A stretch of 64,000 bases of DNA from Ignavibacteriota bacterium (GTDB lineage: Bacteria; Bacteroidota; Ignavibacteria; Ignavibacteriales; Melioribacteraceae): contig JABFGH010000002.1 in NCBI GenBank assembly GCA_013112585.1, forward strand, positions 1-64,000, in the 5' to 3' direction. Under the pieces are notes generated by a model, which made no database searches, was not told where the DNA came from, and saw nothing but the letters and a program-made list of their open reading frames with translations. The translations under genes were made by a program, and so were the position numbers. Below, in pieces: positions 6,098 to 54,991 of the stretch (its first letter is position 1; each line of letters starts with the position of its first letter).

Positions 6098-8167
6098 ATG
6101 AAAAAAATATTATCGCTTATAACTATTGCTATTTTAACTCTATCATCAAATCTATCAGCACAACAAGAAAGATTTCAAAAAACTTTAGAAGACGATAACT
6201 CTAAATTTACAAATGTTGGAAACATTGCAATTACAATTACCAACTTTGGGGTTTATGGTCATGCCTTTAGCTTGTGGCCCCAACAGCCTAGTTGTGAATT
6301 TCCGATTGGCAGCGGTATTGAACACATATATGACGGCGGATTGTGGATTGGGGGCTTTAAGGCTGATGATAGTTTAAAGACAAATATCAGAGGACCTTTT
6401 GTTACAACTGCCGCAACTGACCCTGTAGATGGCGAAAATGGCGTTGAGTTTACAACAGCTCCATCTTCTGTTGTTAGAGAAAGATCATCTAAAATTGAAT
6501 CTGCTTTTTTTGATCCGGCTGCAATTTCGCACCAGGATTTTTTTATGGAGTTTACGGATACGAATAGAACTAGTTCAAATGGTGAATTGATTGTTGCTCA
6601 TAACCCCTACGGCGTTTCTGTAAGACAGGAAACTTATGCGTGGGACTTCCCTTTTGCAAACTTCTTTATAATTTTTAATTACTGGATTAAAAATGTTTCG
6701 AACAAATATTTAGATAGTGTTTACATCGGTTTGTGGACAGACACCGTTGTTCGAAATACAAATGTAACTTCACCACGAACAGGAACCTCCTTTTTTAATA
6801 AAGGGGGTAATGGTTATAATGATTCACTTTCATTAGGATACGAATTTGATGCAGCCGGGGATGTTGGTTTTACCGATAGTTACATTGGTATTCAAGTATT
6901 AGGCTCTGATAAAAATTATGATAGTACAAACTATACTACCTGGCAATATAGAAGTACAACCGACCCAAATTTATTTACTCCCCAAAACGATATAGCACGA
7001 TATAGAAAATTAGAAGGCTACTTCGGCGGTTCAAATAGATATGGGTACAATATCAATCCCGCTACTTTAAAACAACCTTCAAATAGATCAACAATGGTTT
7101 CAGCCGGTCCATTCGACCATTTAGCACCCGGTGATTCCGTAAACATTGTATTTGCAATTGTAGCAGCTAAAAAGTTTGGAACAGACCTGCCCAATTTAGA
7201 TACCGAAGAGCAGAAGAAAAATTTATACGACAATGCAGGCTGGGCAATTCGTGCATACAATGGCGAAGATAGAAACGGAAACGGAATTCTTGAACCCGAA
7301 GAAGATTTGGATGGTGACGGTAAAATTACAAGGTATATTCTTCCTTCACCGCCGCAAAACCCGAAAGTAAAAGTTGTTCCGGAAAGCCGGAAGGCTACAA
7401 TTTACTGGGATAAAAGGGCGGAAGATTCTATTGACCCAATTTCCGCAAAAAAAGATTTTGAAGGTTACAGAGTTTATAGAACTAATTCAGGATTCGATTT
7501 AACGGAATCTCAAGACTTAAATAAAGCTCTGATTAAGATGGCTGAATTTGACAGTCTTGGAAATGATGTTGGATACAATACGGGATTCTCGTTTGTTGAG
7601 ATGGATGAGCCGGTTGTTTTTCCTAACGATACAACAAAATATTATTATAAATATGAAGTGAATAACCTGCTTAACGGCTGGCAATATTTATTTAGTGTTA
7701 CTGCGTTTGATGAAGGTGATCCGGAAAATAACCTCGGCAGTCTCGAATCAGGTAAACTATCGGGAATAAATAGAATTTTACCCGGTACACCTGCGGTAGA
7801 AGAAGATGATGTTGAAGTTGGGGTTTATCCTAATCCATATTACGGAAATGCCTATTGGGACGGCAGTTCGGAACGGTTAAGAAAAATGTATTTCTTCAAT
7901 CTCCCTGCTAATTGCGAAATAACAATATATACATTATCCGGTGATATTGTTGACGTTATTGAACATAACAGTTCCAGCAACGGAAATGATTTAAGATGGT
8001 TCGAAACTTTCTCTCGCGAAGGAAACCAGATAATGGCAGGCGGTGAGCATGCATGGGATTTAATTACAAGAGACGACCAGGCAATTGCAACCGGATTATA
8101 TTTATTTACCGTTAAAAATCTAGACAGCGGAAACATTAAACGAGGAAAATTTTTAGTTATAAAATAA
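6098..8167 (+). CDS. Large secreted protein with EF-hand-like loop, FN3-like region and divergent C-terminal sorting-like domain
   Basis: A 689-residue exported protein of unknown function. Residues 1-21 are a signal peptide ending at LSAQQ. The main body is beta-rich with no family I recognise. At about 389-408 lies an Asp/Asn/Gly-rich loop pair (DRNGNGILEPEE then DLDGDGK) that looks calcium-binding. An FN3-like region follows to about 560. From about 572 the C-terminus (VYPNPYYGNAYW, then FFNLPANCEITIYTLSGD, ending GKFLVIK) resembles a T9SS sorting domain but lacks NPFNPSTTI. The same divergent type ends the 1187-aa protein at 51370. It is followed after 12 bases by the next secreted-protein gene. 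Confidence 0.75.
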   Translation: MKKILSLITIAILTLSSNLSAQQERFQKTLEDDNSKFTNVGNIAITITNFGVYGHAFSLWPQQPSCEFPIGSGIEHIYDGGLWIGGFKADDSLKTNIRGPFVTTAATDPVDGENGVEFTTAPSSVVRERSSKIESAFFDPAAISHQDFFMEFTDTNRTSSNGELIVAHNPYGVSVRQETYAWDFPFANFFIIFNYWIKNVSNKYLDSVYIGLWTDTVVRNTNVTSPRTGTSFFNKGGNGYNDSLSLGYEFDAAGDVGFTDSYIGIQVLGSDKNYDSTNYTTWQYRSTTDPNLFTPQNDIARYRKLEGYFGGSNRYGYNINPATLKQPSNRSTMVSAGPFDHLAPGDSVNIVFAIVAAKKFGTDLPNLDTEEQKKNLYDNAGWAIRAYNGEDRNGNGILEPEEDLDGDGKITRYILPSPPQNPKVKVVPESRKATIYWDKRAEDSIDPISAKKDFEGYRVYRTNSGFDLTESQDLNKALIKMAEFDSLGNDVGYNTGFSFVEMDEPVVFPNDTTKYYYKYEVNNLLNGWQYLFSVTAFDEGDPENNLGSLESGKLSGINRILPGTPAVEEDDVEVGVYPNPYYGNAYWDGSSERLRKMYFFNLPANCEITIYTLSGDIVDVIEHNSSSNGNDLRWFETFSREGNQIMAGGEHAWDLITRDDQAIATGLYLFTVKNLDSGNIKRGKFLVIK

Positions 8168-8179
8168 TAGGAGTTAAAA

Positions 8180-10294
8180 ATGAAGGCTAAATTACTAATA
8201 GCATTTTTATTAATTTTTTTATCGCAGACTTTTGCACAATATCCCGAAATAACAATTAAGGATATAAATTTTGTGCCTGACGATTCATTGCTTTTTTACG
8301 GTGCATTGAATAGTGAACCTCAACCGCCATTAGTTGGCGACACAGTTACGGTTGTCGGTGTTGTAATGTGCCCGCCGTATGAAGGTGCTAATCCCGATAG
8401 TATAGTTACACTCCATGCAGGAGCCCCTTCAATATATTTACAAGATACATCAATGACGGAATGGTCCGGCGTGCTGACCCGCTTTACCGGATCGCCAGTA
8501 CCAGCTGCTTATCAAGTTTTAGATTCGGGCTTCGTTATAAAAGCAACAGGAGTTGTAGTTGAATACTTTACAACTACAGAGTTGGACCTTATCGATTTTC
8601 AAGCTTCAGATATTATCGGACAAATGAAAAGACCTGAACCGGTTTTACTGCCGTTAGATTCATTGGTCGAGATTGGTACACCAAACCCGAATTACCTAGC
8701 CGAAAAATGGGAAGGCGTTTATGTAGAATTCAGAAACTTAACTGTAACAGGCTCCGCAATTGGTAATCAATCGTTTTATGTTCAGGATGAAAACGGTTCG
8801 CAAATGATTGTTTACACAACAGCTGATTGGTGGAGAAGAAAACCAAGCCCTCCTCTTCCGGGTACAAAGATTGATATGGTTAGAGGATATATTGCTAACA
8901 GAAATAATATCGCTCCCGATTGGTTTTTAATTAATCCTGTATTTGAAGAAGATATTGTATTCGGTGATGTCATTCCTCCGAATATTTTTAGTGTTCAAAG
9001 AGATATTGCAAATGTAACTTCGAGCAGTGATGTGGTTGTAACCGCTGTGGTTAACGATGCTGACGGCACAATTGATAATGCTAAACTTTATTACAGTGTT
9101 AATAGTGCTGCCGATATTGAACTTCCGATGACTTTTGCCGGTGACTCCAATTATACAGCAACTATACCTTCCGGTGCATACAATGATGGCGATTTAGTCA
9201 CTTACTATGTTGAAGCAACTGATAACGGTGCCGCAGTTAGCACTAATCCTGCTGATCCCGATGCCGGTAGATATTTCTTTAGAGTTCTTGATAATGGTTT
9301 AACAATTAGTGACGTACAATATACACCCTTTGAAAACGGTATTAGCGGTTATGACTCTTATACTGTAACGGTAAGCGGTATTGTTACTGCAGATACAACT
9401 GATATTGAAGGAGACGGAAGCAATACCGGTCCTCAAGTAGTTATTCAAGATGGTGCCGGACCTTGGAGCGCTATTCAATTGTTTGGTACAGAAGTACTTG
9501 ATTTAAGAAAAGGTGATGATGTTACTGTAACTGGAGTTGTTGATGAAAACTTTGGCGTAACAAGAATTGAAGATGTTGATGCCGCAAATCAACTGGTTAT
9601 TAATGGTACTGCTGCAGTACCGGAGCCAACACCCATAACTACCGATGTGATTGGAACAAGTTCAAGCGGAACTTTGCCTGCTGAATCTTATGAAAGTGTA
9701 TTAGTAAAATACACAGGATTAACCGTTGTAAATGAAAACGCCGATGGAACCCCCGGACCGGGTGGAAGTGGAAACAGCAACTTTGGCGAAATGCTTGTGG
9801 CTGATGCTTCCAATATTCAAACGAGAGTTGAATTACAGGATGGTACGCACAATTATCACAACTTCTGGGATGCAGCACTTGAAAATGAACCCAACAGAAT
9901 TACAACCGGAACAACTATAAGTGATTTAACCGGTATTATGTTTTATTCATTCGGTAACTATAAACTCGTTCCTCGTACAAATTCAGATTTTGGTGTTGTT
10001 GTTGACGTAAAAGATGAAGTTGTAATTCCGGAAGAATATTCCTTAGCACAAAATTATCCTAACCCGTTTAATCCATCTACTACAATTGAATATACAATGC
10101 CTGAAGCCGGGCTTGTTAAAATTGTAGTTTATAATGTTTTAGGTCAGGAAATTGTATCATTAGTTAACCAAATGAAATCTCAAGGTTCACACAAAGTTAC
10201 TTTTGATGCAAGCAATCTTCCATCAGGAATTTATTTTTACAAAATGGAAAGCAATAATTTTGTTCAAACTAAAAAGTTAATGCTCTTAAAATAA
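8180..10294 (+). CDS. Secreted multidomain protein with OB-fold-like domains and T9SS sorting domain
   Basis: A 704-residue exported protein. Residues 1-19 are a signal peptide (ending TFAQ). The body has OB-fold-like units, seen as VGDTVTVVGVV near the N-terminus and as SGIVTADTTD followed by DDVTVTGVVDENFG around 395-455, with an Ig/FN3-like domain between (about 275-365). Related units open the phospholipase-D-family protein at 16944. Residues 617-704 are a canonical T9SS type-A domain with NYPNPFNPSTTI and LPSGIYFYKM. No catalytic motif is visible; it may bind a surface polymer or nucleic acid, which is a guess from the OB-like units. A GGAG ribosome-binding site precedes the ATG. It follows the 689-aa protein gene by 12 bases. 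Confidence 0.8.
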   Translation: MKAKLLIAFLLIFLSQTFAQYPEITIKDINFVPDDSLLFYGALNSEPQPPLVGDTVTVVGVVMCPPYEGANPDSIVTLHAGAPSIYLQDTSMTEWSGVLTRFTGSPVPAAYQVLDSGFVIKATGVVVEYFTTTELDLIDFQASDIIGQMKRPEPVLLPLDSLVEIGTPNPNYLAEKWEGVYVEFRNLTVTGSAIGNQSFYVQDENGSQMIVYTTADWWRRKPSPPLPGTKIDMVRGYIANRNNIAPDWFLINPVFEEDIVFGDVIPPNIFSVQRDIANVTSSSDVVVTAVVNDADGTIDNAKLYYSVNSAADIELPMTFAGDSNYTATIPSGAYNDGDLVTYYVEATDNGAAVSTNPADPDAGRYFFRVLDNGLTISDVQYTPFENGISGYDSYTVTVSGIVTADTTDIEGDGSNTGPQVVIQDGAGPWSAIQLFGTEVLDLRKGDDVTVTGVVDENFGVTRIEDVDAANQLVINGTAAVPEPTPITTDVIGTSSSGTLPAESYESVLVKYTGLTVVNENADGTPGPGGSGNSNFGEMLVADASNIQTRVELQDGTHNYHNFWDAALENEPNRITTGTTISDLTGIMFYSFGNYKLVPRTNSDFGVVVDVKDEVVIPEEYSLAQNYPNPFNPSTTIEYTMPEAGLVKIVVYNVLGQEIVSLVNQMKSQGSHKVTFDASNLPSGIYFYKMESNNFVQTKKLMLLK

Positions 10295-10298
10295 TTGA

Positions 10299-10444
10299 AA
10301 CCGTTTGCCAAAGGCATTCCTTCGGAAGAGACGGTTATACTTTCTCAAAGCTGTTATTAACCCACGACTTTGGCATAGCCATCCCTTCGGGAAAGTCGTG
10401 GGTTAATGGAAATAAAAGTAAAGTCTTGAACGGTTTTAACCGTT
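10299..10444. repeat. REP-like three-hairpin element
   Basis: Three inverted repeats lie in 146 bases. The first has 6-bp arms AACCGT/ACGGTT at 10299-10304 and 10331-10336, with a small TTCC/GGAA inner stem. The second is perfect over 15 bp, with arms at 10357-10371 and 10392-10406 (core CCCACGACTTT). The third is AACGGTT/AACCGTT at 10429-10435 and 10438-10444. The CCTTCGG loop motif occurs in the first two. A related CCCACGA hairpin plus the downstream GGTTAATGGnAATAAA stretch recurs at 24.4-24.5 kb, so this is a repeat family rather than a simple terminator. Confidence 0.6.
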
Positions 10445-10485
10445 TATAGTTGAAGAAAATTATTTTTATAAATAAAGTTTACTTG

Positions 10486-12051
10486 ATGATAAAAATTAAA
10501 AGACTATTAAAACTATTTGCTCTCGTTACTTTAACAATAAGTATGTTATCGTGCGATGAGAAAACCAACGAACCGCTTGAAAATCAAGCTCCCGATACTT
10601 TTATGTTTTTGTATCCCGATTCAGGAGTATCTATTAGTCAGCAGAAAAGCAGGCTGAATGTTCATTGGTGGGGTGATGACCCTGACGGATTGGTTATCGG
10701 TTATTATTTTCAATGGGAAGGAATAGATGCAGGCTGGAATTTTACAACTAAAAATGACAGTTTATTTTCGCTGCCTATCGGAACTGTTGATACCAATTTT
10801 ACATTTAGAGTTATGGCTGTTGATAATAACGGTAACGGTGTTTATGATAATAGTGTTATGTGGAATGGAATTGATCTTGGTCCCGAACCCTTTATAGATA
10901 GGGATAATAACGGGGTTTATTCTAACGGTGAGGACTATTATGATATTGGGGCTATTGACCCAACTCCCGCAGAGCAAAACTTTCCAATCAGAAATTCACC
11001 TCCCGAAATTAGATGGAATGATTTAAGCGTTCTGCCTGCTTCATCATTTCCTGTAATAACTTTAGGCTGGGATGTATCTGACCTTGACGGAGATGAATCG
11101 GTTGTTGCAATAAATTTATCATTAAACGATACCAGTTCATTTGTAACTCTTGAAGGAAATGTGCGCTTGGTTTCATTGCGTTCACAAAATATTTTTAGCG
11201 CACAGCCAACTATGCAAATTTTGATTAATGGCTCTGAAACAAATATTGCTTCGGCAGAATTGCAAAATTTATTGCTCGATGCTAATAATAGAATTTATGT
11301 TCAGGCAGTTGATATCTCCGGTTCAAAATCACCCTTTGCCCCTTTACCCGATACAAGTCAAACTTGGTTTGTACGTAAACCTAAAGGTAAGTTTATTATT
11401 GTTGATGATTATCAAATAGCCGATGGTGCAGACGCATTTTATAATAATGTTTTTGATAATGTTCAAGGCGGTATGCTGGCAGGTAAATACGATGTGCTTG
11501 ATTTAGAAAACACAGTACTGCCTTATGAAAATGTAACATTTTTAGAGACTCTTAAATTATTTGATTATATCTACTGGTACTCCGGCAGCAGTCCTAATTT
11601 AGGATTGATAAATTTAGTTTCGCAAAAATATATTGATCAAGGCGGAAAAATAGCCTACTCAATGACATTTCAAGATTCATCCAGTTCATTTACAGTCGAT
11701 CTTCCTACACTGCAAAACTTTTTACCTATAGCAGAATTAGGGGAAGAACAACCGCTTAATTTTTTATTTTCCGGAGCTAATGTACTGAAGTCTAATACTG
11801 CCTCAACATATCCAAGTTTAAGAACTTCATCCACAATAAGTTTTGTTAGAACTTATGTTACTAATACTGTTATTGCCGAAGAAATTTATGACGTTACAAG
11901 TAATCAAATAAACGGCAATATTGCATTTTTAGATCTGGGTAAAAATTTATTTTTTATCGGACTACCTCTGCATCATTGTAATGGAATCTCAGGTTCTGTA
12001 GAAGAATTACTTGGAAAAATTTTATTTGAAGAATTTGGATTAACTCCATGA
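10486..12051 (+). CDS. Lipoprotein of surface module A, unknown function
   Basis: With the ATG at 10486 the product is 521 residues and starts MIKIKRLLKLF with a lipobox MLSC, so Cys23 would be lipidated. An in-frame TTG at 10450 would lengthen the signal to 35 residues and seems less likely. The N-terminal half is Ig/FN3-like and has Asp/Asn/Gly-rich loops (VDNNGNGVYD, DRDNNGVYSNGED) like those in other proteins of the module. The C-terminal 220 residues begin GKFIIVDDYQ and end in an alpha/beta pattern that suggests a glutamine-amidotransferase-like fold without an obvious catalytic Cys; this is tentative. The stop overlaps the start of the TonB receptor by 4 bases. Confidence 0.75.
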   Translation: MIKIKRLLKLFALVTLTISMLSCDEKTNEPLENQAPDTFMFLYPDSGVSISQQKSRLNVHWWGDDPDGLVIGYYFQWEGIDAGWNFTTKNDSLFSLPIGTVDTNFTFRVMAVDNNGNGVYDNSVMWNGIDLGPEPFIDRDNNGVYSNGEDYYDIGAIDPTPAEQNFPIRNSPPEIRWNDLSVLPASSFPVITLGWDVSDLDGDESVVAINLSLNDTSSFVTLEGNVRLVSLRSQNIFSAQPTMQILINGSETNIASAELQNLLLDANNRIYVQAVDISGSKSPFAPLPDTSQTWFVRKPKGKFIIVDDYQIADGADAFYNNVFDNVQGGMLAGKYDVLDLENTVLPYENVTFLETLKLFDYIYWYSGSSPNLGLINLVSQKYIDQGGKIAYSMTFQDSSSSFTVDLPTLQNFLPIAELGEEQPLNFLFSGANVLKSNTASTYPSLRTSSTISFVRTYVTNTVIAEEIYDVTSNQINGNIAFLDLGKNLFFIGLPLHHCNGISGSVEELLGKILFEEFGLTP

Positions 12052-14858
12052 AAAAAATCTATACAATACTAATTTTAATATTAACAAGTATTTCGGCAAT
12101 AGCTCAATCTACCGGATCTATACGTGGCGTTGTTACCGATGCTGCTGCCGGTGATCCTTTGCCAGGTGTTAATGTTATTCTCGAAGGTACATACTTTGGA
12201 GCCGCTACTGATTTTGAAGGCTCCTATCAAATAAGAGGTATAACTCCCGGTGAATACACTGTTAAAGTAACTCTAATCGGTTTCAAAACATTTAAGTTCA
12301 CGGGTATTGATATTGAACCGAATAAAACACTTGAGCTTGATGTTAAACTTGAAGAAACTGTTTTAACAATGGAGCAGGATGTAGTTGTGGTTGGCGACAG
12401 ACCGCTTGTTGATGTTGAAGAAACTCAAAGTAAAATTAGTATATCAAGAGAAGATGTTGAACTTGCTGTAATTGAAAATATTAGCGACCTGGTTTCTCAG
12501 CAAGCCGGTGTGGTTAAATCCGATAACGCAATTCACATACGCGGCGGAAGATCATACGAAAATGCTTTTCTGCTTGACGGTGTTTCTGTTCAAGACCCAT
12601 TAGCAGGTACCGGATTCGGACTTCAGTTAAGCGCAAACTCAATTGAAAAGGTTGAAGTGCTGACCGGAGGTTTTAATGCAGAATTCGGTCAGGCTACTTC
12701 GGGTATTGTTAATGTTAAAACCCGCGAGGGCGGCGAAAGGTATTCCGGTTCTTTAAGTTATAAGACAGATAATTTCGGCAGCACATCTTCACCGCATATT
12801 TTTAATATTGATATTCTTGAAGCAAATTTAAGCGGACCGGAACCAATAACCAGTTTTCTACTCCCTTCACTTGGAATTCAGATACCGGGTAAAATTAGTT
12901 TGTTCGGAAGTTTTTACGGCGGAATAAGTGACGGCATAACTCAAGGCTACTTTAAAACTACCGCTAAGCAGCTTTACTCATCAACTTTTCATGGTTCCCG
13001 CTTTGCACCCCGTGCAGAAAATAGCTGGTTCGGTCTCGGTAAAATTACTTACTCAATCAGCTCCACAATGAAATTAGTTTATTCCTACAATCAATCAGTT
13101 AGTATAAACCAAAACTCGCAATCATTACAATCGAATTTAGAGTATGTTGAACCGAGTCCCGGTTATCAGTATAACTTTCAAACAATATTAGATAACGCAA
13201 ATGTTTTTACACACAATAACCGATACAACACAATAAGCTGGACACACACACTAAACTCAAAAACATTTTATGAAATTAAGCTGAATCATTTCTTTTCAAC
13301 ATTAAGAGCAGATGCCAACGGCAAGTATTGGTGGGAGTATGAGGAAAGGGAAGACATAACAACATTCCCGATTGAATATTACAATACTACCGGCGATACA
13401 ATAGGTGTTATACCGGGAGATGGTTTCTGGGATGTTGGAAATCCTGATACATGGCGTGATCATTACATTGAAGAGTTTTCACTTAAAGGTGACTTAACTA
13501 GTTTCTTTGATGAGAAAAATAAATTTAAAGCCGGCTTCAATTTAGTCTTTCAGGAAATGCAGGTTATTGATATTTACCGCCCATGGATTGGCGAAATGGG
13601 ATTGAACAATGACATTTACAAAGTGAAGCCTGCCCGCGGTTCTTTTTATGCTCAAGATAATATTAACTTCAGCGGTATGATATTAAACTTTGGACTTCGT
13701 ACCGATTATTGGTTCCCCGGCAAATTTGTTGATGATGCTGTTAAAAACCCCGAAGTAGTTACGATACCGGATGAGATTAGGCAGCGTTATGAAGATGAAT
13801 CATTTACCTTTTTCGGTGATAGAAAATTTAAAGCCCGAATTAGTCCAAGGCTTGGAATATCCCACCCTGTAACTGATAACCAGGTTTTATTTTTCTCATA
13901 CGGGCATTTCAGCAAGTGGCCCCGTCCGCAATTTGTTTATGCAAAACTTAGTCCTTCAAACGCACAGTCTTCATTTCAGCGATTCGGAAATCCTAATCTT
14001 AAACCGGAAACAACTGTTGCTTATGAACTCGGTTTGAAAACACAGTTTTCGCAGAATGATGTACTTACCGTAACGGCATACTACAAAGATATTTTTGATT
14101 ATATAAGAACCAGAACAGCCAACATAACATCAGCCCGTTTTGCAAATCAGTCATTCATCACTTATGCAAATTTAGATTATGCTAAATCAAGAGGATTGGA
14201 AGTTGATTTTAGAAAACGAATAGGAAAATGGTTTAATAGCCAGTTCACATTTTCTTATGCAATTGTAACGGGTAAAAGTTCATCGGCTGATGAAGGAGTT
14301 TTAATTTTACGAGGTGATTTGGATGAATCGATAAAAGAAGATTTTTTATCATGGGATAGACCCGTTACCGCATCATTAAGTTTTAATTTTTATGTTGAGC
14401 CTGATAAACCACTTTTCGGGGTTCTGCCAGGTGTACTTGATGACATTAATTTTTATACAAGAATATTTTTTGAATCGGGTAAAAGATATACCCCTGCATT
14501 ACCGACCGGTAATTTTGATTTAGACGGCAGACCGGAATATATCTCCGATAGATCAAATCGAAATTCCGAGATAGGGGATAACTGGTTTTGGATTGATATG
14601 AATATTGAAAAATATTTCAAAATAGCCGGACTCAAATTTTCTCTGTTTATGGAAGTCAATAATTTATTGGATACAAAAAACAGTGCAATAATTAACCCGG
14701 TTACGGGTGAAGCTTATGAGTTGGGCGATCCAACACCTTCTTCATGGAACGATCCTAATTACCCCGATCTGCAGGCTCCTATTTCTCCTTTTCCCGATAA
14801 CCCTGCAAGATATTTAACAAGACGAAATATAAAATTTGGAGTAAGCTTAATATTTTAA
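12048..14858 (+). CDS. TonB-dependent outer-membrane receptor (module A)
   Basis: A 936-residue receptor. A signal peptide (1-19) is followed by a carboxypeptidase-regulatory-like domain at about 22-105 (GSIRGVVTDAAAGDPLPGVNV...DFEGSYQIRGITPGEYTV). A plug domain follows at about 110-225, with IHIRGGRSYENAFLLDGV and VEVLTGGFNAEFGQA. The rest is a long beta-barrel that ends in a terminal Phe (FGVSLIF). It is predicted to form a gated channel in the outer membrane, energised by TonB; the ligand cannot be read from sequence. It sits in a tight operon, overlapping the lipoprotein gene by 4 bases and separated by 2 bases from the PorV-like gene. That linkage suggests a role in assembling or presenting the secreted proteins rather than simple nutrient uptake (inference). 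Confidence 0.92.
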   Translation: MKKIYTILILILTSISAIAQSTGSIRGVVTDAAAGDPLPGVNVILEGTYFGAATDFEGSYQIRGITPGEYTVKVTLIGFKTFKFTGIDIEPNKTLELDVKLEETVLTMEQDVVVVGDRPLVDVEETQSKISISREDVELAVIENISDLVSQQAGVVKSDNAIHIRGGRSYENAFLLDGVSVQDPLAGTGFGLQLSANSIEKVEVLTGGFNAEFGQATSGIVNVKTREGGERYSGSLSYKTDNFGSTSSPHIFNIDILEANLSGPEPITSFLLPSLGIQIPGKISLFGSFYGGISDGITQGYFKTTAKQLYSSTFHGSRFAPRAENSWFGLGKITYSISSTMKLVYSYNQSVSINQNSQSLQSNLEYVEPSPGYQYNFQTILDNANVFTHNNRYNTISWTHTLNSKTFYEIKLNHFFSTLRADANGKYWWEYEEREDITTFPIEYYNTTGDTIGVIPGDGFWDVGNPDTWRDHYIEEFSLKGDLTSFFDEKNKFKAGFNLVFQEMQVIDIYRPWIGEMGLNNDIYKVKPARGSFYAQDNINFSGMILNFGLRTDYWFPGKFVDDAVKNPEVVTIPDEIRQRYEDESFTFFGDRKFKARISPRLGISHPVTDNQVLFFSYGHFSKWPRPQFVYAKLSPSNAQSSFQRFGNPNLKPETTVAYELGLKTQFSQNDVLTVTAYYKDIFDYIRTRTANITSARFANQSFITYANLDYAKSRGLEVDFRKRIGKWFNSQFTFSYAIVTGKSSSADEGVLILRGDLDESIKEDFLSWDRPVTASLSFNFYVEPDKPLFGVLPGVLDDINFYTRIFFESGKRYTPALPTGNFDLDGRPEYISDRSNRNSEIGDNWFWIDMNIEKYFKIAGLKFSLFMEVNNLLDTKNSAIINPVTGEAYELGDPTPSSWNDPNYPDLQAPISPFPDNPARYLTRRNIKFGVSLIF

Positions 14859-14860
14859 TT

Positions 14861-15844
14861 ATGAAAAAAATTATACTTATAATATTTCTGGGTCTGACGT
14901 TTTCGTCAACAATGCACGCACAGTCATTTCCTACTCTCGGCGGTCAGCGAGCCGGAATATCTACACTTCAATTTCTGAAGATAGGAGTAGGGGGGCGTGC
15001 GGCAGCTATGGGTGAATCTTTTATTGCAGTTGCCGATGATGCATCAGCGCTTTATTGGAACCCCGCCGGATTGGTTCAGAAAAAAGAAAATCAAATTATG
15101 TTTTCGCACAACGAATGGGTTGTGGATATCCAGCATGAATTTGCAGGCGCAGTTTATCATCTTGGTCCTAATGATGCTGTTGGACTTGCATTTACTTCAC
15201 TTCATATGGATAAGATGCCTGTTACCACAGAGGTTAATCCTTTTGGTACCGGAGAATATTTTACTTTCAGTGATATTGCCTTAGCAGTGACTTATTCAAA
15301 AAAAATGACTGAGCAATTTAGTTTCGGCGGTACAATTCGTTATGTTGAGGAGACATTAGATAAACTTAAAATGCGCGGAGTTATGGTTGACCTCGGAACT
15401 CTTTACTGGACAGGCTTGGGCACTACTCGATTTGCCGTTACGATTTCAAACTTTGGCAACGAGGTTGCCCCGGACGGTGAAGTTGTACTTTTCGGCAATA
15501 GGAAAAATTCCGACTGGCAGTCATTTTCGCCTCCTACACTTTTTAGAATTGGTTTTGCTTTTGAACCATATCAAACAGATTTACACAGAATTACCGCTTC
15601 GGCTCAATTGAACCACCCTAACGATAACAGTGAAAATGTTGTGACCGGATTTGAATATTCTTACAAGGAAGTATTCTTTTTTAGAGGCGGATATAAATTT
15701 AATGTTGAAGAACAAAATATTTCATTCGGAGCCGGACTAAAAGCACCTATCAGCATTGCAAATGTAATTTTTGATTATGCATTTTCAAATTTTGAGCGCT
15801 TAGGTTCTGCACACCGTTTTTCTTTGTTATTAGGATTATATTAA
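14861..15844 (+). CDS. PorV/PorQ-family outer-membrane protein (module A)
   Basis: A 327-residue beta-barrel protein with a signal peptide (1-20, ending MHAQ). The motif FLKIGVGGRAAAMGESFIAVADDASALYWNPAGL near residues 38-72 is the hallmark of the PorV/PorQ (UPF0164-like) family. Known PorV shuttles T9SS substrates to the attachment machinery; whether this copy does so is inferred from the T9SS-type neighbours. It ends FSLLLGLY, as expected for a barrel. It lies 2 bases after the TonB receptor gene and 1 base before the NHL lipoprotein gene. A paralogue is at 54992. Confidence 0.88.
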   Translation: MKKIILIIFLGLTFSSTMHAQSFPTLGGQRAGISTLQFLKIGVGGRAAAMGESFIAVADDASALYWNPAGLVQKKENQIMFSHNEWVVDIQHEFAGAVYHLGPNDAVGLAFTSLHMDKMPVTTEVNPFGTGEYFTFSDIALAVTYSKKMTEQFSFGGTIRYVEETLDKLKMRGVMVDLGTLYWTGLGTTRFAVTISNFGNEVAPDGEVVLFGNRKNSDWQSFSPPTLFRIGFAFEPYQTDLHRITASAQLNHPNDNSENVVTGFEYSYKEVFFFRGGYKFNVEEQNISFGAGLKAPISIANVIFDYAFSNFERLGSAHRFSLLLGLY

Positions 15845-15845
15845 A

Positions 15846-16931
15846 ATGATTAAAAAGTTTACTACATATCTTATTTTAGCAGCAATAATTTTTCTCTTTT
15901 CTTGTACCGATAAATTTGATCCTAATTTAGATGTTATGCCAACAGGGGGTACGGGAAATATAGGCGATACAGTTTATGTTCAGCTTTCGCCCGATTGGAC
16001 AGGATTTAATGAACCCAAAGATATGATAATTGGGAAAGATAATTTTCTTTATATCGCCGATACCGAAAATGATAGAGTTGTGATGATGGATATTTCAGGT
16101 GCGGTTATCGGTTCAATAAATATAAAGAAGCCCGTTGCAATTGAGCAGGATTACAGGCTTAATTTGATCGTATGCGGTAAATATGATTACACGAAAGATG
16201 GAATCACCACAACCTTTGGTGCTGTTTATAAATTAAACCTATTTGAAGTTGATCATGATATTACGGCTGCGGTGCCTAAGCTGATTTTACCCGACACGAC
16301 AAAACTTTCGGATTTATCAAGACCGAGCAGACAGTATACCGGTGTTTGCGTGTTTGCTGATAATTCATATTACATCGGCAGAACAGGTCCATCTAATTCA
16401 AGTGCCATTAGTCCCGATAACGCAATTATGCATTATCAAGTTTTAAAAGATTCTATCGGCAATCGTTACGATTCATTCAAAGAAATACTGCCTCGCTTTG
16501 AACCGCTTGGTACCGGCATAAGATCTACAAATGAAATTAGTTCCCTTACTTCATTCAACTTCCCTACACGTGATTTTATAGTAACTCTGGAAACCAACAG
16601 CTTTAAATCACAATGGCTTCAGTTTGTAAGAACGGCAGACTTTGAAGGTTATGAAACAAGAATTGAAGTTGGCAGAGAATTTATGCTTCCAAATAAATTT
16701 GGTAAGCCTGAAGATGCCGCAGTTGATAATGCCAATAATATTTACATTGCAGATTCACAAAAGGATAGCGTATTTATTTTTAATTCTTTCGGCGATGAAC
16801 TGCAGTCATTCGGCGGATCGGAATTATTCGATTCCCCGCATGCTGTTGCATTTTTTGATAAAACACTTTACGTGCTTGATACCAAAAACGACCGTATTGT
16901 TCGGTTTATTCTTTCCACAGAAATTGAATAG
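15846..16931 (+). CDS. Lipoprotein with NHL-type beta-propeller repeats
   Basis: A 361-residue protein with a lipoprotein signal ending at Cys20 (IIFLFSC). Repeated units such as EPKDMIIGKDNFLYIADTENDRVVMMD near 57-85, KPEDAAVDNANNIYIADSQKDSVFIFN near 285, and DSPHAVAFFDKTLYVLDTKNDRIVRF at the C-terminus are typical of NHL/six-bladed propellers. It probably sits on the outer membrane and makes protein or glycan contacts. It is tightly packed in the operon (1 base after the PorV-like gene, 12 bases before the PLD gene). Confidence 0.82.
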   Translation: MIKKFTTYLILAAIIFLFSCTDKFDPNLDVMPTGGTGNIGDTVYVQLSPDWTGFNEPKDMIIGKDNFLYIADTENDRVVMMDISGAVIGSINIKKPVAIEQDYRLNLIVCGKYDYTKDGITTTFGAVYKLNLFEVDHDITAAVPKLILPDTTKLSDLSRPSRQYTGVCVFADNSYYIGRTGPSNSSAISPDNAIMHYQVLKDSIGNRYDSFKEILPRFEPLGTGIRSTNEISSLTSFNFPTRDFIVTLETNSFKSQWLQFVRTADFEGYETRIEVGREFMLPNKFGKPEDAAVDNANNIYIADSQKDSVFIFNSFGDELQSFGGSELFDSPHAVAFFDKTLYVLDTKNDRIVRFILSTEIE

Positions 16932-16943
16932 GAAATTTTATTT

Positions 16944-19265
16944 ATGAAATTATTAAGAACCATTGCTCTTCTTTTAAGCAGTGCTGCAATATTGTTTGCC
17001 CAAACTTCGGAACCGATAGTTAATATTAGAACAAATGATTTAACCGGAATGCCGACCCGCCTGGGTGAAGTTGTAACTATAAGCGGGATTGTAACTGCAT
17101 CAAATCAATTCGGAAATTCGGGACCTGCGAATATTCAAGATATTACAGCCGGTATTTCAATTTATGGGAGCAGTTTTGCTAATGCTGTTTCTATTGGTGA
17201 TTCTGTAACAGTAACGGCAACCGTGGATCAATTCAATGGATTAACCCAGTTAAATATGACGATGGGCTCCCCCTCATTTACAAATCACGGTGCTGCTGTT
17301 GAAGAAGTTGATCCAACAATTGTAACGCTTTCGGATATACTAAATCAAGACTGGAACGGTACTGAATTAATTGAAGGGCTGCTGGTAAGGGTTAATAACG
17401 TTTCAATAAATGGGTCGGGTACTTTTTCCGGCTCGGCAAATTATACTATCACAGACCCAACCGGCTCACTTGATATGAGAATTGATAATGATGTAGCCTC
17501 AATAATTGGAACAGCCATTCCATCGGGAACTGTTGATTTAATTGGTGTCGTTGGTCAATATGATTTTGGTGTTCTTAATTCAGGTTACCAAATTTTACCA
17601 AGATTTATTGAGGATATTGTTACTGAAAATACACCTTTGATACTAACGCCGGTTGTGGCATCTAACGTTACTCCCAATTCATTTACGGTTTATTATAACA
17701 CATTACGAAATGGTGATTCAGAAGTAAGATACGGAGTTACTGCTGCACTGGAATTGGATACAATTAAAATTGCTGAAGATACAACGGTACATGTTATTCC
17801 AATTAGCGGATTGGAAGAACTTACAAAATATTATTACAAAGTTTATTCAACAAATGAAGTTGGAACAAGTGAGAGTGACATATTTTCTGTAACAACCGCG
17901 TCCTCAAATCCTTCTATCGGCGGTATTAATGTTTACTTTAACTATTCAGTTGATAACTCAGTTGCTATCCCCGGAAATGAAGCTCAGGGAAATATTGATT
18001 TTAGAGATAAGTTAATTGAAAGAATAAATGCAGCAACTTATTCAATTGATATGGCTGTTTATAGTTTTTTTGGATTGAACGATGTAGCGAACACGATTGT
18101 TGCCGCTAAGAATAGGGGAGTAAAAGTAAGGGTTGTATATGATGCAAGAAATGTACAGAGTTCAATGCAGATACTGCTCGATAATGGAATTCAAATGAGT
18201 CAGAGACCTAGCTGGCTTAATGGAATTATGCACAATAAATTTGCAATATTTGATGCACGTGACAGCGTAGCAACTAATGACTGGGTTTGGACTGGCTCAT
18301 GGAATTGGACATCATTGGAATTGAACTGGCGAAATAACATAGTTGAAATTAATGATCCTTCATTAGCCCAAACTTATCAGGAAGAATTTGAAGAAATGTG
18401 GGGAAGTGATACCGACACACCTAATTCCTCTAACGCAAAATTTGGATTTGAAAAAACTGATAATACTTCACATTCATTTTCTATCGGCGGAAGAGATGTT
18501 GGACTTTATTTTAGCCCGTCCGATCAAACTGAATCAAAAATTATCAACGCAATAGCTTCTGCAGATTCATCAATATATTTTGCACTGCTTGCGTTTACTA
18601 GTGATGGAATTTTTAACTCGATTGAACAGCGGCATAGTTTGGGTGTGACCGATATTCGTGGAATTATAACAGATGCAAATATTCAGGGATCGGAATTTGC
18701 AAACTTGCAAAACCTTTCCGGATCCGAAGTGTTTGATTTTAATTTTAGCGATAAACTGCATCATAAATATGGAATGGTTGATGCTCCTTATGCCTCTACC
18801 GATCCCACAGTTATTACAGGTTCGCATAATTGGTCTCGAGCTGCAAATGAAAGCAATGATGAAAACACATTAATTATTCATGATGTATATATTGCAAATC
18901 AGTATATGCAGGAATTTAAAAAGAGATACAATGAATTAGGCGGCACAACAGTTTTTAATATTCCGGTTTTAACCTCTGTTGATGATGATGCAATTATTCC
19001 AAGTAAATTGGTTTTAGAACAAAACTATCCTAATCCTTTTAATCCTGTTACAACAATAAGTTTTACATTACCTGCAAGTGAATATGTTGATCTATCAGTA
19101 TATAATTTACTCGGGCAGAAAGTTGCAGTGGTATATTCAGGGGTAGCAAATTCCGGTAAAACAGTTGTGGACTTTAACGCATCAGCATTAAGCAGCGGAA
19201 TTTATTTTTACACACTCTCAACACAAAGTGATTCATTCACTAAAAAATTAATGCTGTTGAAATAG
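16944..19265 (+). CDS. Secreted phospholipase-D-superfamily enzyme with OB-fold-like and FN3 domains and T9SS sorting domain
   Basis: A 773-residue exported enzyme. The signal peptide is 1-20. Residues about 25-225 hold two OB-fold-like units (GEVVTISGIVTAS, VDLIGVVGQYD). An FN3 domain spans about 233-320. Two PLD domains follow, each with an HxKx4D motif: H430-K432-D437, then GSWNW, and H606-K608-D613, then GSHNW. Both motifs are intact, so an active two-site enzyme is expected. The substrate could be nucleic acid or phospholipid; the OB-like units make a nuclease more likely (inference). Residues about 688-773 are a canonical T9SS domain (NYPNPFNPVTTI, SSGIYFYTL). It is the last gene of module A. 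Confidence 0.88.
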   Translation: MKLLRTIALLLSSAAILFAQTSEPIVNIRTNDLTGMPTRLGEVVTISGIVTASNQFGNSGPANIQDITAGISIYGSSFANAVSIGDSVTVTATVDQFNGLTQLNMTMGSPSFTNHGAAVEEVDPTIVTLSDILNQDWNGTELIEGLLVRVNNVSINGSGTFSGSANYTITDPTGSLDMRIDNDVASIIGTAIPSGTVDLIGVVGQYDFGVLNSGYQILPRFIEDIVTENTPLILTPVVASNVTPNSFTVYYNTLRNGDSEVRYGVTAALELDTIKIAEDTTVHVIPISGLEELTKYYYKVYSTNEVGTSESDIFSVTTASSNPSIGGINVYFNYSVDNSVAIPGNEAQGNIDFRDKLIERINAATYSIDMAVYSFFGLNDVANTIVAAKNRGVKVRVVYDARNVQSSMQILLDNGIQMSQRPSWLNGIMHNKFAIFDARDSVATNDWVWTGSWNWTSLELNWRNNIVEINDPSLAQTYQEEFEEMWGSDTDTPNSSNAKFGFEKTDNTSHSFSIGGRDVGLYFSPSDQTESKIINAIASADSSIYFALLAFTSDGIFNSIEQRHSLGVTDIRGIITDANIQGSEFANLQNLSGSEVFDFNFSDKLHHKYGMVDAPYASTDPTVITGSHNWSRAANESNDENTLIIHDVYIANQYMQEFKKRYNELGGTTVFNIPVLTSVDDDAIIPSKLVLEQNYPNPFNPVTTISFTLPASEYVDLSVYNLLGQKVAVVYSGVANSGKTVVDFNASALSSGIYFYTLSTQSDSFTKKLMLLK

Positions 19266-21008
<1,743 letters not shown>

Positions 21009-21013
21009 TAATT

Positions 21014-46533: not shown

Positions 46534-48339
46534 ATGTTTAAAAGACTAATTACCATTTTTATCCTTGCGATGTTTATCCCTGCTTTAATGTCTGCACAAG
46601 TCGCAGAGAAAGCTACCAAGATTGATCCAGCAAGTGAAAAAGAGATATCAACTTCAAAACATGTTGATGGTCCTAAGCATATAACAGCCGGTACTCAGTT
46701 ATTTTTTACTGACTATGATTATGCTGGCAATAACTCAATCCCTAACATGATTCAAATGTACGACTTTGACGCAAGCGGCAGCTTAGATGTATTTGCTGTT
46801 GGTATGAAAAGAATTGACGGCGGAACAAGAGGCAATAACTTTGTCGTTGGTTCCGATGGTACTTTTCTTGACTTTTTAGCAAGTGACCCTTCAGCTTATA
46901 CAGGATGGGGAACAATGCAGGTTCCAACTGTTGGTCCAGCATTAGGCAAAGCTTTAATTATGGGTCATGTTGGCGGAAATACAAGTTGGATGAATGTTGA
47001 TCTAACAACATTTGCTCCTGATGGACCTGACTCAGTTGTTGCAGGTAACTTCCCATCATTTGTTTATTTAGATGACGGTACAGTATTTGTCACTAACACA
47101 AATGGTCAGTTATATAAAACAACTGATATGGGTGTGACAAATCAAGATTGGGGTTCATTAGACCCTGCAGATCCGCTTATTACTGCTTATAACAGTGAAT
47201 ATCTATTAAAGAAATCACCAAACGGAATGTATATTTTCCATCCTTCTTGCTATGCAAGAGCAGGTGAAGGCGGTTTTGGCGGCGTTGGTAAAGATTCTGC
47301 CGATATGGCTACAATTAGTTATTCTACTGATTCAGGTGAAACCTGGACAATCGGTGAAATGATTGGAGAAGAAGGTTATACTCCTGTAGTTAACAGAACT
47401 GGTTATTTCCCATTATTTGAAAACTTCGGTCAGGTTAACGGCGGCGTTGATGATAATGGTGTTATGCACGTAACAATGAATGGTTACGGTTACTGGGATA
47501 ACGGTACAGATACTACTTTTGCATTCCCAGGTATTTACTGGAATAGTAGAGATAGAGAATGGAAAGCTTTTACAGATGAAGCTGTTGAACAAGGTATTTA
47601 TCTAGAAGCAGATACTTATGACAGACCTGGTAACGGTTTAGGTAATGCTTATCCATCAATTTCAATGACTGCTGATGGAATGAAGCTAATGATTATCTGG
47701 CAAGGTCCTGAATATACAGGTGCAGTTGGTACAAGCCCTGTTAATACTTGGACTCCAACAGGTACTGATCCTGTAGAACTTCACTATACTGACTTGTATT
47801 ATGTAACTTCAGGCGATGGCGGTGTTACATGGTCAGCACCTGAAAAAGTTCCTGGAGCAAGCGAACCTAACGTTCAGGAAACTTTCCCATATCCAAATCA
47901 GGAATTATTTGTTACAGGTACAGATGCTACTTTGCATTATGTTTATATGGTTGATGCAATTCCTGGTACTTCATTATTTGATGATAACAACAGTGCATCA
48001 AATGATTCATACTGGGCATATGATAACTTTACAGTTACAATTGCTACAGATATAAACGATAATGAGTTAGTAGTAAATGAATTTAAATTAGATCAAAATT
48101 ATCCTAACCCGTTTAACCCTAGCACAACTATTAGCTTTACACTTCCTGAAAGCGGAATGGTAAGCCTAAAAGTTTATGATGTACTAGGTAAAGAAGTTGC
48201 TACATTAGTAAACGAAGTAGTAAATAGTGGTCAGCATACAGTTGATTTCAACGCTGAAAATTTATCAACAGGTATTTATTTCTATGAATTATCTGCCGGT
48301 GAATTTGTTCAGACAAACAAAATGATGCTGATAAAATAA
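46534..48339 (+). CDS. Secreted beta-propeller-like protein with Asp-box repeats and T9SS domain
   Basis: A 601-residue exported protein. The signal peptide is 1-21. Asp-box motifs typical of sialidase/BNR propellers occur at about 264-272 (STDSGETW) and about 425-432 (SGDGGVTW). No sialidase catalytic residues are recognised, so it may be a non-catalytic propeller. Residues about 515-601 are a canonical T9SS sorting domain (NYPNPFNPSTTI). It has its own promoter and terminator, and its codon usage and strong ribosome-binding site (AAGGAG) suggest high expression. It precedes the module B receptor but is transcribed separately. Confidence 0.85.
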   Translation: MFKRLITIFILAMFIPALMSAQVAEKATKIDPASEKEISTSKHVDGPKHITAGTQLFFTDYDYAGNNSIPNMIQMYDFDASGSLDVFAVGMKRIDGGTRGNNFVVGSDGTFLDFLASDPSAYTGWGTMQVPTVGPALGKALIMGHVGGNTSWMNVDLTTFAPDGPDSVVAGNFPSFVYLDDGTVFVTNTNGQLYKTTDMGVTNQDWGSLDPADPLITAYNSEYLLKKSPNGMYIFHPSCYARAGEGGFGGVGKDSADMATISYSTDSGETWTIGEMIGEEGYTPVVNRTGYFPLFENFGQVNGGVDDNGVMHVTMNGYGYWDNGTDTTFAFPGIYWNSRDREWKAFTDEAVEQGIYLEADTYDRPGNGLGNAYPSISMTADGMKLMIIWQGPEYTGAVGTSPVNTWTPTGTDPVELHYTDLYYVTSGDGGVTWSAPEKVPGASEPNVQETFPYPNQELFVTGTDATLHYVYMVDAIPGTSLFDDNNSASNDSYWAYDNFTVTIATDINDNELVVNEFKLDQNYPNPFNPSTTISFTLPESGMVSLKVYDVLGKEVATLVNEVVNSGQHTVDFNAENLSTGIYFYELSAGEFVQTNKMMLIK

Positions 48340-51356: not shown

Positions 51357-51369
51357 TTTTTAACAATAA

Positions 51370-54300
51370 ATGGCAGAAAAAATGAAACATAAAAAATTAT
51401 TCAAGATACAAAACATTATACTCCTGTCGTTATTGGTATTTATTTTTTCAATTGGTGTTTATGCCGAAGTAGAAAAAGGCGGCAGCACCAATGGATTTTA
51501 TAAAACCAATGAAACCGGTGAGTTTTTTGTTTTTGATATTAATAATCTCTTTTTACCCCTTGATAACAAAGGTGTAATTGCAGATGTTATTCCCGGGCAG
51601 GGATCTATTGCCGGCGGGAAATTGGGTGGAGATAACGGAACTGTATTTTTGTTCTCCTCCGGATTTTATTTGTCGGGCTATACAGATAAAAACAATGACG
51701 GTACGTTAGCGGAAAATGAAATGTGGGGTAACGGCGTATTGAGTGCCTCTCGTATTGAAGATTACCAGCCCGGTCCTTACGGGGTTAGTCAGGGTGATCC
51801 TAAAAATAAAGTATATACTGTAAGAGCACAAGATAAAGCATTCGGTCCTTCATGGCAGGATTGGAAGGATGCTGTTTCCATTGGTGCAGATTTTTACGAT
51901 GGCGACGGCGACGGCGTTTACAATCCTGTTGATAAAAATGGTGACGGTGCCTGGAATGTGAATGAAGACAGACCCGACCTTATTGGAGACGTTACTGCAT
52001 GGACAGTTTATAATGATGGTGTGCCTACTGCTTTAAGAAGATATACAGTTGAGCCGCAAGGTACTGAAATTCATCAAACCGTATTTGGTTTTCAGACCAA
52101 AACCGGTGCTGTGAGTAATATGATGTTTGTTAGATACAGATTAATTAATACAGGTGCTGTAGCTGATACATTTTATAATTGCTATTTCTCTGCAGCCGCT
52201 GATCCCGATCTTGGTGACCACTTAGATGATTTAGTAGGTTGCGATATCGATTTAAGTGCCGGATATGTTTACAATGGCTCAGCTGATGCCGATTTTGGTC
52301 CCAATCCACCTTGTTTCTTAATGGACTTTTTCCAGGGTCCTGTTGTGTACATACCCGGTGAAACCTTTGTTGATGCAAATGGAAATGGTTTATATGATGA
52401 AGGCGAGACAGCTTTAGATACAGCATTTAATGTAAACGGAAGGCAATTAGGAATAATTGAATACCCCGGAGCGACTAACAAACCATTAACTGCTATGACC
52501 CAATATATGCAGTCTCACCCATCTCACGGTGACCCTGATACTCACTTTGAGTTAAGAAATTATCTTCTTGGCGGCCGTGGGAAAAATGGTGATTCCCTTT
52601 ATGTAAGTAATTGGGAATTCGGTAATGGAGATGAATTATCTGATACAGCTCAAATAGATACAAGATATATGTACTCCGGTGATCCCGTTTTAGGTACCGG
52701 CTGGTTGAATACCAATCCTATTGATCAGAGACAAATGTCAAACACTGGTCCATTTAAATTAATTGTAGGTGAACCTCAGGATATAATCGTCGCTTACGTT
52801 GTTGGACGAGGTGATTCAGGACCAAATAGTGTTAACGTTGCTAAGGAATATAGTGCAGTTGCTCAATTAATTTTTGATAATAACTTTCCATCTCCTCCTC
52901 CTCCTCCTCCAATTCCTTATACCGTAAAAATGAATGAAGACTATATTGAAATAGATTTTGAAACAGCAGATAACTTAAATTATAATGCTGTTGATACAGT
53001 ATTTCAAATTGATAGAAAAACTCAAGGCTTTTTTATAAATGCGTATAGAACAAGCTCAACAGAAAATAGTATCAACGGTATTCAGAATAAAAAGCAAATT
53101 GCAGCTTTTTCTGTTGATAACTTTATCAATGACGTTTACGCGCTTTCTTCAAATGGCGGTGTTGATTTAGTCATGACTAAAAATGACGACCTTATTACCG
53201 GCGAGGACTTTTTAGATCCGGCAAAAGGCAGAGTTAGAGTAAGAATAACATCTAACCCATTTGAACCGGGAAGTCCGTTAACAAAAGGTGAAGAATTTTA
53301 TTTTCAATTAGGTTCGTTTACTCTTAATCATATACCTTTAGTGGGTTATCAGCCTGCTGATACTAACTTCGTATATGGTGACGTTGGTGATTATTATGAT
53401 CCTACAGGCGGCGCTTATAAAGAATGGCCGAGAGGCACCTTTAAGGTTGTGTTTGGATCAGATTTTTACTCACCTTCGGTTAGTGATGCTGCAGCTGAAA
53501 ATGCTACCGGTGCTACAGATGGTGAAGTAAAATATATAGTTGTTGATAAAACTCAATTGACAGGTGATAACTATTCAGTTGAATTCTTTCAAGATGATAC
53601 TTCAACTCTTTATTCAAACTTTTGGAAATTAACTAATCAAACTACCAATACTGTATTGATTGATTCATCGAAAAACTTCAACTTCAGTGATAAAGATATT
53701 TCCGGTACTGTAGTAGATGGTTTTGTTATGAGAGTAATGCCTATTGATCCAGGGTTAAAATCTCAATCTGAATTAACTGCAGGGTACCAGTCTGTTAACC
53801 CTACTTGGTTCGAGCCTTTTTCAAGAACAGGCTTAGGAGGAGTTTATTACGTAGGTACCGATATTGCGGCTGGAACTCCTTATGTAGGAAATCCATTAAC
53901 TAATATGGATTCGCAAAGATCTACAAAAATTTCTGTAGATAAATTAAGAAGAGTTGAACTTAGGTTCGGCGAAACATCTAAAGCTTACAGATATGTAAAT
54001 GGAATTGTTGGAACACCCTTTACAAGAGGAAAAACCTTTGCTTATGCAGAAGCTGTTGAAGCAGGTGATACAACAGGATCTAATTTTAAAAGATTAGGTG
54101 AGGGCTTTGTTGATGTGCCATTTTCGGCTTGGGTTGTTGATGAGCGATATGGAGAAGAATACCAGTTAGCTACAGGTTTTGTTGAAAGAACAGCCTTATT
54201 CGAAGGAATTCCGGATGGTATTTGGAATCCTACAAACGCAATAGAAAAAACATTAGAAACAATTTTAATTTTCAATTCTCCTTACGATGCTAACGGTGCA

Positions 54301-54933: not shown

Positions 54934-54991
54934 TAATGAGGAACAGATGTATATGTTCTTCTTTAACATAAAATTAATGGAGTATTAAAAA

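Follow-up and report, generated by a model that had tools for sequence, protein, structure and literature searches.

A candidate three-part surface receptor of a TonB-dependent receptor, a secreted protein and a PorV-like barrel in an Ignavibacteriota bacterium

This study concerns a stretch of 64,000 nucleotides from an Ignavibacteriota bacterium (contig JABFGH010000002.1, positions 1–64,000, assembly GCA_013112585.1; the whole stretch is referred to here as the window), and within it module A, an array of seven genes on one strand at positions 6098–19265 that includes the genes for a TonB-dependent receptor, for a PorV-like barrel and for a large secreted protein, termed SEC1. The genome carrying the window is 4.94 Mb in size and 99.97% complete. 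Taken together, the evidence leans towards module A being one of ten cassettes in this genome, each of which would build a three-part surface receptor. In this scheme, the SEC protein would be exported first by Sec and then by SprA, the translocon of the type IX secretion system (T9SS); its C-terminal domain (CTD) would not be cut off and would instead be taken up by a private, nearby-encoded PorV-family barrel, as those of PorU and PorZ are by PorV and PorQ, respectively; the barrel would keep the SEC protein on the cell surface beside the co-encoded TonB receptor; and the SEC protein would there form the outer binding part or lid of the receptor, the place that SusD fills on SusC. Precedents for such a scheme are found in the available sections of PMC7463736, PMC11285876, PMC10202324 and PMC12618676. 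The wider proposal of a class of TonB receptors with a T9SS product as external subunit, in which the private PorV-type barrel carries the SEC protein from the translocon and stays as a permanent docking pillar, is put forward tentatively, as possible rather than probable.

A first-pass annotation of the window, made from its letters, had noted the receptor next to the PorV-like gene and asked whether such pairs are rare elsewhere; they are common. The genome carrying the window holds 14 PorV-family genes over the cut-off and 31 Plug matches, and ten of these 14 genes have a Plug gene upstream on the same strand, at no more than 8.5 kb, where 0.37 were expected. The corresponding counts in four further genomes are 10/14, 7/18, 5/10 and 5/10 (expected 0.31, 0.45, 0.36 and 0.28), so that 37 of the 66 PorV-family genes of the five genomes are paired against 1.8 expected; PorV-family matches over the cut-off were counted (one of the 66 only together with its neighbours) and Plug matches at an E value of 0.001 (one of them below the cut-off). 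In none of the five genomes is the best-scoring PorV-family gene paired, and the unpaired genes of the present genome are the true PorV beside PorU (L061), PorQ (L067), a PorV2-like gene below its cut-off (L072) and one of two genes at L071; the paired genes therefore form a separate, expanded set. At L071 (L071:6853–10394), the gene for a secreted protein with a PorU-like CTD stands before two PorV-family genes, with no receptor gene present, possibly a further cargo/shuttle set.

The partner overlooked in the first-pass annotation is the third one, the large secreted protein (SEC). The order receptor, SEC, PorV-like is found in nine of the ten cassettes of the genome, with gaps of −1 to 58 bases, and module A is the tenth, in which the SEC gene lies upstream instead. 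A second triad in the same window (triad B, 48516–56011) has the standard order and is preceded by an ordinary T9SS cargo gene. The distances between receptors, between SEC proteins and between PorV-like proteins are correlated over the ten triads (Spearman 0.67–0.75, all at the floor of 1999 permutations), and the triad is therefore probably inherited as a unit.

The same arrangement was followed in public genomes through the 80 best of at least 566 relatives, so that the fractions given for loci hold for the nearest relatives, which are mostly records labelled Ignavibacteria, Ignavibacteriales or Melioribacteraceae. These 80 loci contain 83 PorV-like open reading frames (ORFs): 36 show the triad order, 25 immediately follow a receptor gene and nine follow a SEC gene that is not itself directly preceded by a receptor, six of the nine being cut by the contig start. 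The remaining 13 comprise three at a contig start (L085, L132, L133), one separated from the receptor by a short ORF (L093), L114, L120 and seven with no adjoining partner. Besides Ignavibacteria, the triad order occurs in Kryptonia (Chrysopegis, L138), Neomarinimicrobiota (L113), Calditrichota (L117), Zixiibacteriota (L125, L136, L158, L159), GN15 (L148), Eisenbacteria (L143) and WOR-3 (L150). No description of a receptor–SEC–PorV cassette was found among the papers listed by searches of the open-licence PMC literature, which is weak evidence of absence.

SEC1 has no family match in general family scans and no match to a PorU or PorZ model at an E value of 1. Modelled with a mean pLDDT of 77.9, it comprises a predicted β-sandwich (about residues 26–416), an FN3-like part and a PorZ/PorU-like CTD of the T9SS type. 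The sandwich, presumably the fold called β-supersandwich, matches the N-terminal domains of GH116, GH94, GH65 and other carbohydrate-active enzymes, with Z scores of 14.5–19.3, root-mean-square deviations (rmsd) of 3.2–4.8 and 231–290 aligned positions among the matches listed. A shared fold is all that is read from this match, and no enzymatic activity is drawn from it; the predicted fold would allow a carbohydrate-binding role and does not show one, and the ligand might be a glycan or another polymer.

The CTD of the SEC proteins can be told apart from that of ordinary cargo. In leave-one-out profiles, the ten SEC CTDs of the genome reach 71–123 bits with the SEC model and 9–25 bits with the cargo model; for 22 ordinary cargo CTDs the corresponding figures are 8–39 and 59–143 bits. 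Two other CTD proteins are intermediate (24.8/55.7 and 33.1/39.1 bits on the SEC/cargo models). Among solved structures (up to an E value of 10), the SEC CTD profile matches PorZ (5m11, 1.1e-6), PorU (6za2, 0.013), two FlgD and one DSCAM, and is thus nearest to PorZ and PorU. The top matches of the cargo CTD profile are the T9SS cargo tails 8glj_D and 8glk_D (2–3e-4) and the tails of two further proteins, enzymes or binding proteins; PorU (0.0035), a gingipain tail (0.25) and PorZ (0.27) come lower down. With NCBIfam models at an E value of 1, PorZ is matched by nine of the ten SEC CTDs, TIGR04183 by nine and PorU by eight. The SEC proteins are probably T9SS-type cargo, and by analogy with PorZ and PorU their CTD might be retained after secretion.

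Searching the same genome with the SEC CTD model returns the ten SEC genes at 111–141 bits, an eleventh at 75 bits and the next match at 42 bits, a search that is not independent since the ten CTDs built the model. The search of four other genomes is independent; in it, the 55 strongest of 75 matches were used (the 20 weakest, below 35.2 bits, being left out). The matches include 33 of at least 60 bits, of which 32 precede a PorV-family gene: 28 lie 84–236 bases before the PorV-family match, one lies 1104 bases before it and three lie about 7 kb before it, as in module A, and one has none. Seen from the barrel, a strong SEC CTD precedes 32 of the 52 PorV-family genes over the cut-off in these four genomes. 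The SEC protein and the PorV-like barrel are probably a cognate pair.

A phylum-wide sample was searched with the SEC CTD at an E value of 1e-15 or better. Matches were obtained in all 17 genomes of the same family (the present one included), all eight of the rest of the order, 35 of 36 of the rest of the class and 65 of 186 in other classes, a split that assumes that the genome list, in which 102 of the 122 genomes with no match do not appear, is sorted by kinship, as it appears to be. In 17 of those 35 class genomes there is a single match, comparable in strength to the lone eleventh protein, and these genomes may therefore lack cassettes. That eleventh protein (L191:4495–8694, G000:C1) has 1399 residues and a SEC-type CTD with no PorV-family gene adjoining, and lone SEC-type matches of similar size are seen in G021 (1458 residues, 69 bits) and G047 (1441 residues, 58 bits).

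The PorV-like protein of module A belongs to the PorV/PorQ family (NF033709, 230.8 bits against a cut-off of 90), and is neither PorV proper (NF033710, 78.7 bits against 250) nor PorQ proper (NF033711, 93.4 bits against 220); the true PorV of the genome scores 258.5 bits and its PorQ (C4:236668) 267.2 bits. Its predicted fold (mean pLDDT 90.7) is best matched by PorV of the T9SS translocon (8gl6_F, Z 34.9, rmsd 3.7, 286 aligned; 6h3i_F, Z 34.1, rmsd 3.1, 280 aligned), followed by FadL (3pgr, Z 30.8, rmsd 3.3, 269 aligned). The match to BamG is weaker than that to PorV (9n2d_B, Z 26.6, rmsd 3.1, 282 aligned), and no BamG model is among the family matches at an E value of 0.001. With PorV as the nearest fold in the prediction, the barrel is proposed to be a T9SS shuttle for the SEC protein. 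Alignment A5 comprises 50 sequences (49 of 79 full-length relatives and that of the window) and alignment A6 comprises 19 (18 of 62 and that of the window).

The receptor of module A carries CarboxypepD_reg, Plug (PF07715, 48.3 bits) and barrel (PF00593, 96.1 bits) domains, all over the cut-off. In a tree of 30 of the 31 Plug matches, the ten paired receptors fall into one clade of 11 (support 96/92); all ten keep Plug and CarboxypepD_reg, and inspection by eye showed stretches resembling a TonB box in nine of the ten N-terminal regions. The receptor is far below the SusC/RagA cut-off (TIGR04056, 81.1 bits against 368.25), and the statement of the first-pass annotation that no classic SusD gene is present extends to the whole genome, in which PF07980, the SusD model searched, has no match. 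The receptor was accordingly not taken as an ordinary SusC. Among 51 genomes examined, PF07980 is absent from 43.

The T9SS machinery needed for the proposed export is encoded in the genome, with SprA at 991.5 bits and PorU at 990.8 bits, and the porU and porV genes adjoin. In the genomes of 50 of the 80 loci, chosen to favour records not labelled Ignavibacteria, SprA is over the cut-off in 48 (the exceptions are G013, with a 110-bit fragment, and G028, with a best match of 25 bits and PorU over the cut-off), and a T9SS-independent reading was therefore dropped; PorU is over the cut-off in 42 of 51 genomes. The records with SprA over the cut-off include WOR-3, Hydrothermota, Eisenbacteria, Fermentibacteraceae/Sabulitectum, Zixiibacteriota and Neomarinimicrobiota (G008–G036, L107–L159, excepting G013 and G028), which lie beyond the phyla named in the available part of PMC11285876. 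The present genome also has at least 150 matches to the type A T9SS tail (150 of 232 candidates scored) and, besides the true PorU, two PorU-like frames below the sortase cut-off of 420 (G000:C10:43861–48861, 1920 residues, 239 bits; C22:60110–64753, 1783 residues, 206 bits).

Several observations weigh against a three-part receptor of this kind. On the side of the secreted protein, SEC1 falls short of the cut-off of TIGR04183, the type A tail model (13.3 bits against 23). The separation of the SEC and cargo classes arises in part by construction, because the cargo set was picked by similarity to the cargo tail. A retained class of CTDs is not clean, as the CTD of the PorU of this genome scores higher on the cargo model (51.1 bits) than on the SEC model (33.7 bits), and NCBIfam scans of single sequences are less sharp than the profiles, the 22 cargo CTDs matching TIGR04183 in 22 cases, PorU in 21 and PorZ in seven at an E value of 1. 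The linkage is also incomplete: the genome encodes one SEC-type protein without a PorV gene (L191), and one receptor in the clade stands without partners (L057); an upstream Plug gene is lacking for 29 of the 66 PorV-family genes and a strong upstream SEC CTD for 20 of the 52 (both counts including the true PorV of each genome), and seven PorV-like loci labelled Bacteroidetes, Chitinophaga or Chitinophagales (L105, L106, L110, L112, L140, L153, L155) have neither a receptor nor a SEC gene directly adjoining, L112 having a receptor 3.5 kb downstream. Finally, the correlated distances of the partners show shared inheritance and are no proof of contact; within the scheme, contact of the SEC protein with the receptor is a tentative element.

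The strongest rival, which we nevertheless consider unlikely, takes the SEC–PorV pair alone as the real unit, an adhesin displayed on its cognate barrel, with the receptor as a regulatory or historical neighbour. The 32 of 33 strong SEC matches that predict a PorV-family gene speak for it, 21 of the 31 Plug genes of the genome have no PorV, and SEC–PorV pairs occur with no receptor directly before them (L123) or with the receptor several genes upstream (L151, L157). It leaves unaccounted for, however, that the paired receptors form a single clade and that they co-diverge with both partners. A somewhat less probable rival is a pure secretion or display unit, in which the receptor barrel or the energy of TonB aids export or localization of the SEC protein and no ligand is imported. 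It would account for how often the genes for a secreted protein, a barrel of the shuttle type and a receptor lie together, yet the Plug and CarboxypepD_reg domains are kept in every paired receptor, nearly all of these have TonB-box-like stretches and SprA is already present as exit channel. The first-pass annotation had taken the array as a hint of a joint secretion or surface-display unit rather than a system of nutrient uptake. A link with surface display through the T9SS agrees with the findings, since the usual third member is secreted and carries a T9SS-like CTD. Ruling out uptake is unsupported, as all ten paired receptors keep Plug and CarboxypepD_reg and nothing observed speaks against transport.

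Least probable of the rivals, and in our judgement very unlikely, is a pair of independent uptake channels under one regulator, namely the TonB receptor for one nutrient and the PorV-like barrel as a hydrophobic channel of the FadL/TodX type, with the SEC protein as an unrelated adhesin or enzyme. FadL and TodX do share the fold of the barrel (Z about 30), and in Pfam UPF0164 is over the cut-off and the FadL-family Toluene_X is matched below it, but the sequence profile is much closer to PorV (4.8e-34) than to TodX (6.1e-6), and a hydrophobic channel does not explain why a strong SEC CTD so regularly predicts a PorV-family gene. The reading of the barrel as a hydrophobic channel is set back by the profile and pairing tests together.

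The features of module A and of triad B are listed in Table 1. The successive genes of module A are separated by 12 bases, 191 bases, a 4-base overlap, 2 bases, 1 base and 12 bases; the ORF coordinates thus agree with the first-pass claim that the five genes from 10486 onwards overlap or lie at most 12 bases apart, and the first two genes form a separate block upstream. That the genes form one array holds, and a single transcript is uncertain because the 191-base gap contains a strong hairpin. A scan for promoters and terminators gave no excess over shuffled sequences (44 against 51.4 and 5 against 9.2), and the hairpin was rejected as a dispersed repeat, two patterns having matched their own site only (in 194 loci, which are part of the genome). 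The T9SS cargo that the first-pass annotation had recognized is partly borne out, with the tails of the second and seventh proteins over the cut-off; the cargo of the triad is the product of the first gene and not these two. The ExeM/NucH-like stretch of the second protein (residues 436–605) is below the model cut-off, and the seventh contains two PLDc_2 stretches.

Table 1. Features of module A and triad B (window coordinates).
Feature	Position	Strand	Evidence
SEC1, large secreted protein; proposed surface partner of the receptor	6098..8167	+	CTD profiles, predicted fold
Conserved module A member; secreted, with ExeM/NucH-like stretch and an ordinary T9SS tail of type A	8180..10294	+	
Intergenic stretch with strong hairpin (z −4.65); may divide transcription of module A	10295..10485	+	Hairpin stability score
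Predicted lipoprotein with no family match; conserved member of module A	10486..12051	+	Lipobox by eye
TonB-dependent receptor, CarboxypepD_reg and Plug; in the clade pairing with SEC and PorV-like genes (L045)	12048..14858	+	
PorV-like FadL-family barrel; proposed dedicated shuttle/holder of SEC1	14861..15844	+	
NHL-repeat lipoprotein, conserved as the next gene behind the PorV-like one in module A loci	15846..16931	+	NHL over cut-off; lipobox by eye
Accessory PLD-like (NucT-like) secreted enzyme; ordinary T9SS tail of type A	16944..19265	+	
Ordinary T9SS cargo upstream of triad B	46534..48339	+	
Triad B TonB-dependent receptor	48516..51356	+	
Triad B SEC protein, PorZ/PorU-like CTD	51370..54933	+	
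Triad B PorV-like barrel	54992..56011	+	

The order of module A is kept in its nearest group of loci (L081–L104, L107–L109). The NHL gene directly follows the PorV-like gene in 25 of these 27 loci (L098 is cut and L100 has no NHL gene), and SEC1 is at the same upstream place in 17 of the 18 with enough upstream contig, L087 being the one without it. The order recurs in Kryptonium/Kryptonia (L094), KSB1 (L103) and two Neomarinimicrobiota (L107, L109). In L107 it is the PLD protein that matches the second gene best, probably because the two have end domains in common, and NHL matches there are weak (46–57 bits). The PLD gene is classed as accessory because it exceeds 500 bits in only eight module A loci, all of them Ignavibacteria or similarly labelled near records. 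An NHL-like gene also lies downstream in five of the seven PorV-like loci with no adjoining partner. Module A stands directly before atpD and a likely atpC (window 19599–21424), with low-complexity direct repeats seen by eye in between (19270–19520), and atpD likewise follows the module in L082, L083, L084, L088, L090 and L091.

If the three-part receptor is borne out, the five genomes counted would each run 5–12 parallel shuttle lines, and PorV, instead of being a single recycled shuttle, would have diversified into a family of delivery barrels. Bacteria of this kind may finish their surface receptors by means of a protein-secretion system and not by the usual lipid-anchored lid, which might explain how receptors function where a lineage has numerous TonB receptors and shows no SusD match (43 of 51 genomes). 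The 5–12 natural SEC/PorV-like pairs per genome would make both specificity and the protection of the CTD accessible to pair swapping, and the cassette provides a sequence-based means of naming 'PorV/PorQ family' genes and surface proteins that would otherwise go unnamed in uncultured phyla.

Focusing on known systems, the cassette resembles SusCD/RagAB in that the gene for a TonB receptor with CarboxypepD_reg adjoins that for an external protein; unlike SusCD/RagAB, there is no SusD match, the receptor is far from SusC/RagA and the external partner resembles T9SS cargo rather than a lipoprotein. In the BAM complex, according to the available sections of PMC12611786 and PMC12578637, a barrel of the FadL family (BamG) holds a surface protein (BamH) over a larger barrel, an architecture similar to that proposed here, whereas BamH is a lipoprotein, the large barrel is BamA and the fold match of the present barrel is weaker to BamG than to PorV. 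Type B cargo genes commonly lie directly before a private PorP/SprF shuttle gene, sometimes in three-gene operons, in the accessible text of PMC12618676 (2025), which also has all type A CTDs recognized by PorV; the cassette likewise has a cargo gene followed by that of a private shuttle barrel, whereas its barrel is of the PorV family, its CTD is PorZ/PorU-like and its extra gene encodes a TonB receptor and not PorE. Another comparison is with PorU–PorV and PorZ–PorQ, in which a CTD-bearing surface protein is held by a FadL-type barrel. The CTDs of PorZ and PorU are kept and not removed upon secretion (PMC11285876, as far as its available text goes), and the excerpted 2023 review (PMC10202324) gives the cause of the uncleaved PorZ CTD as unknown, with protection by cognate PorV-like barrels as a suggestion. 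Retention is proposed here too, and PorZ and PorU are the closest PDB entries to the SEC CTDs; unlike these systems, the PorV-like protein lies below the PorV and PorQ cut-offs, SEC1 has no PorU or PorZ model match, there are 5–12 pairs in each of the five genomes counted and most units include a TonB receptor. The cassette would be a new version of the known pairing of T9SS cargo with its shuttle.

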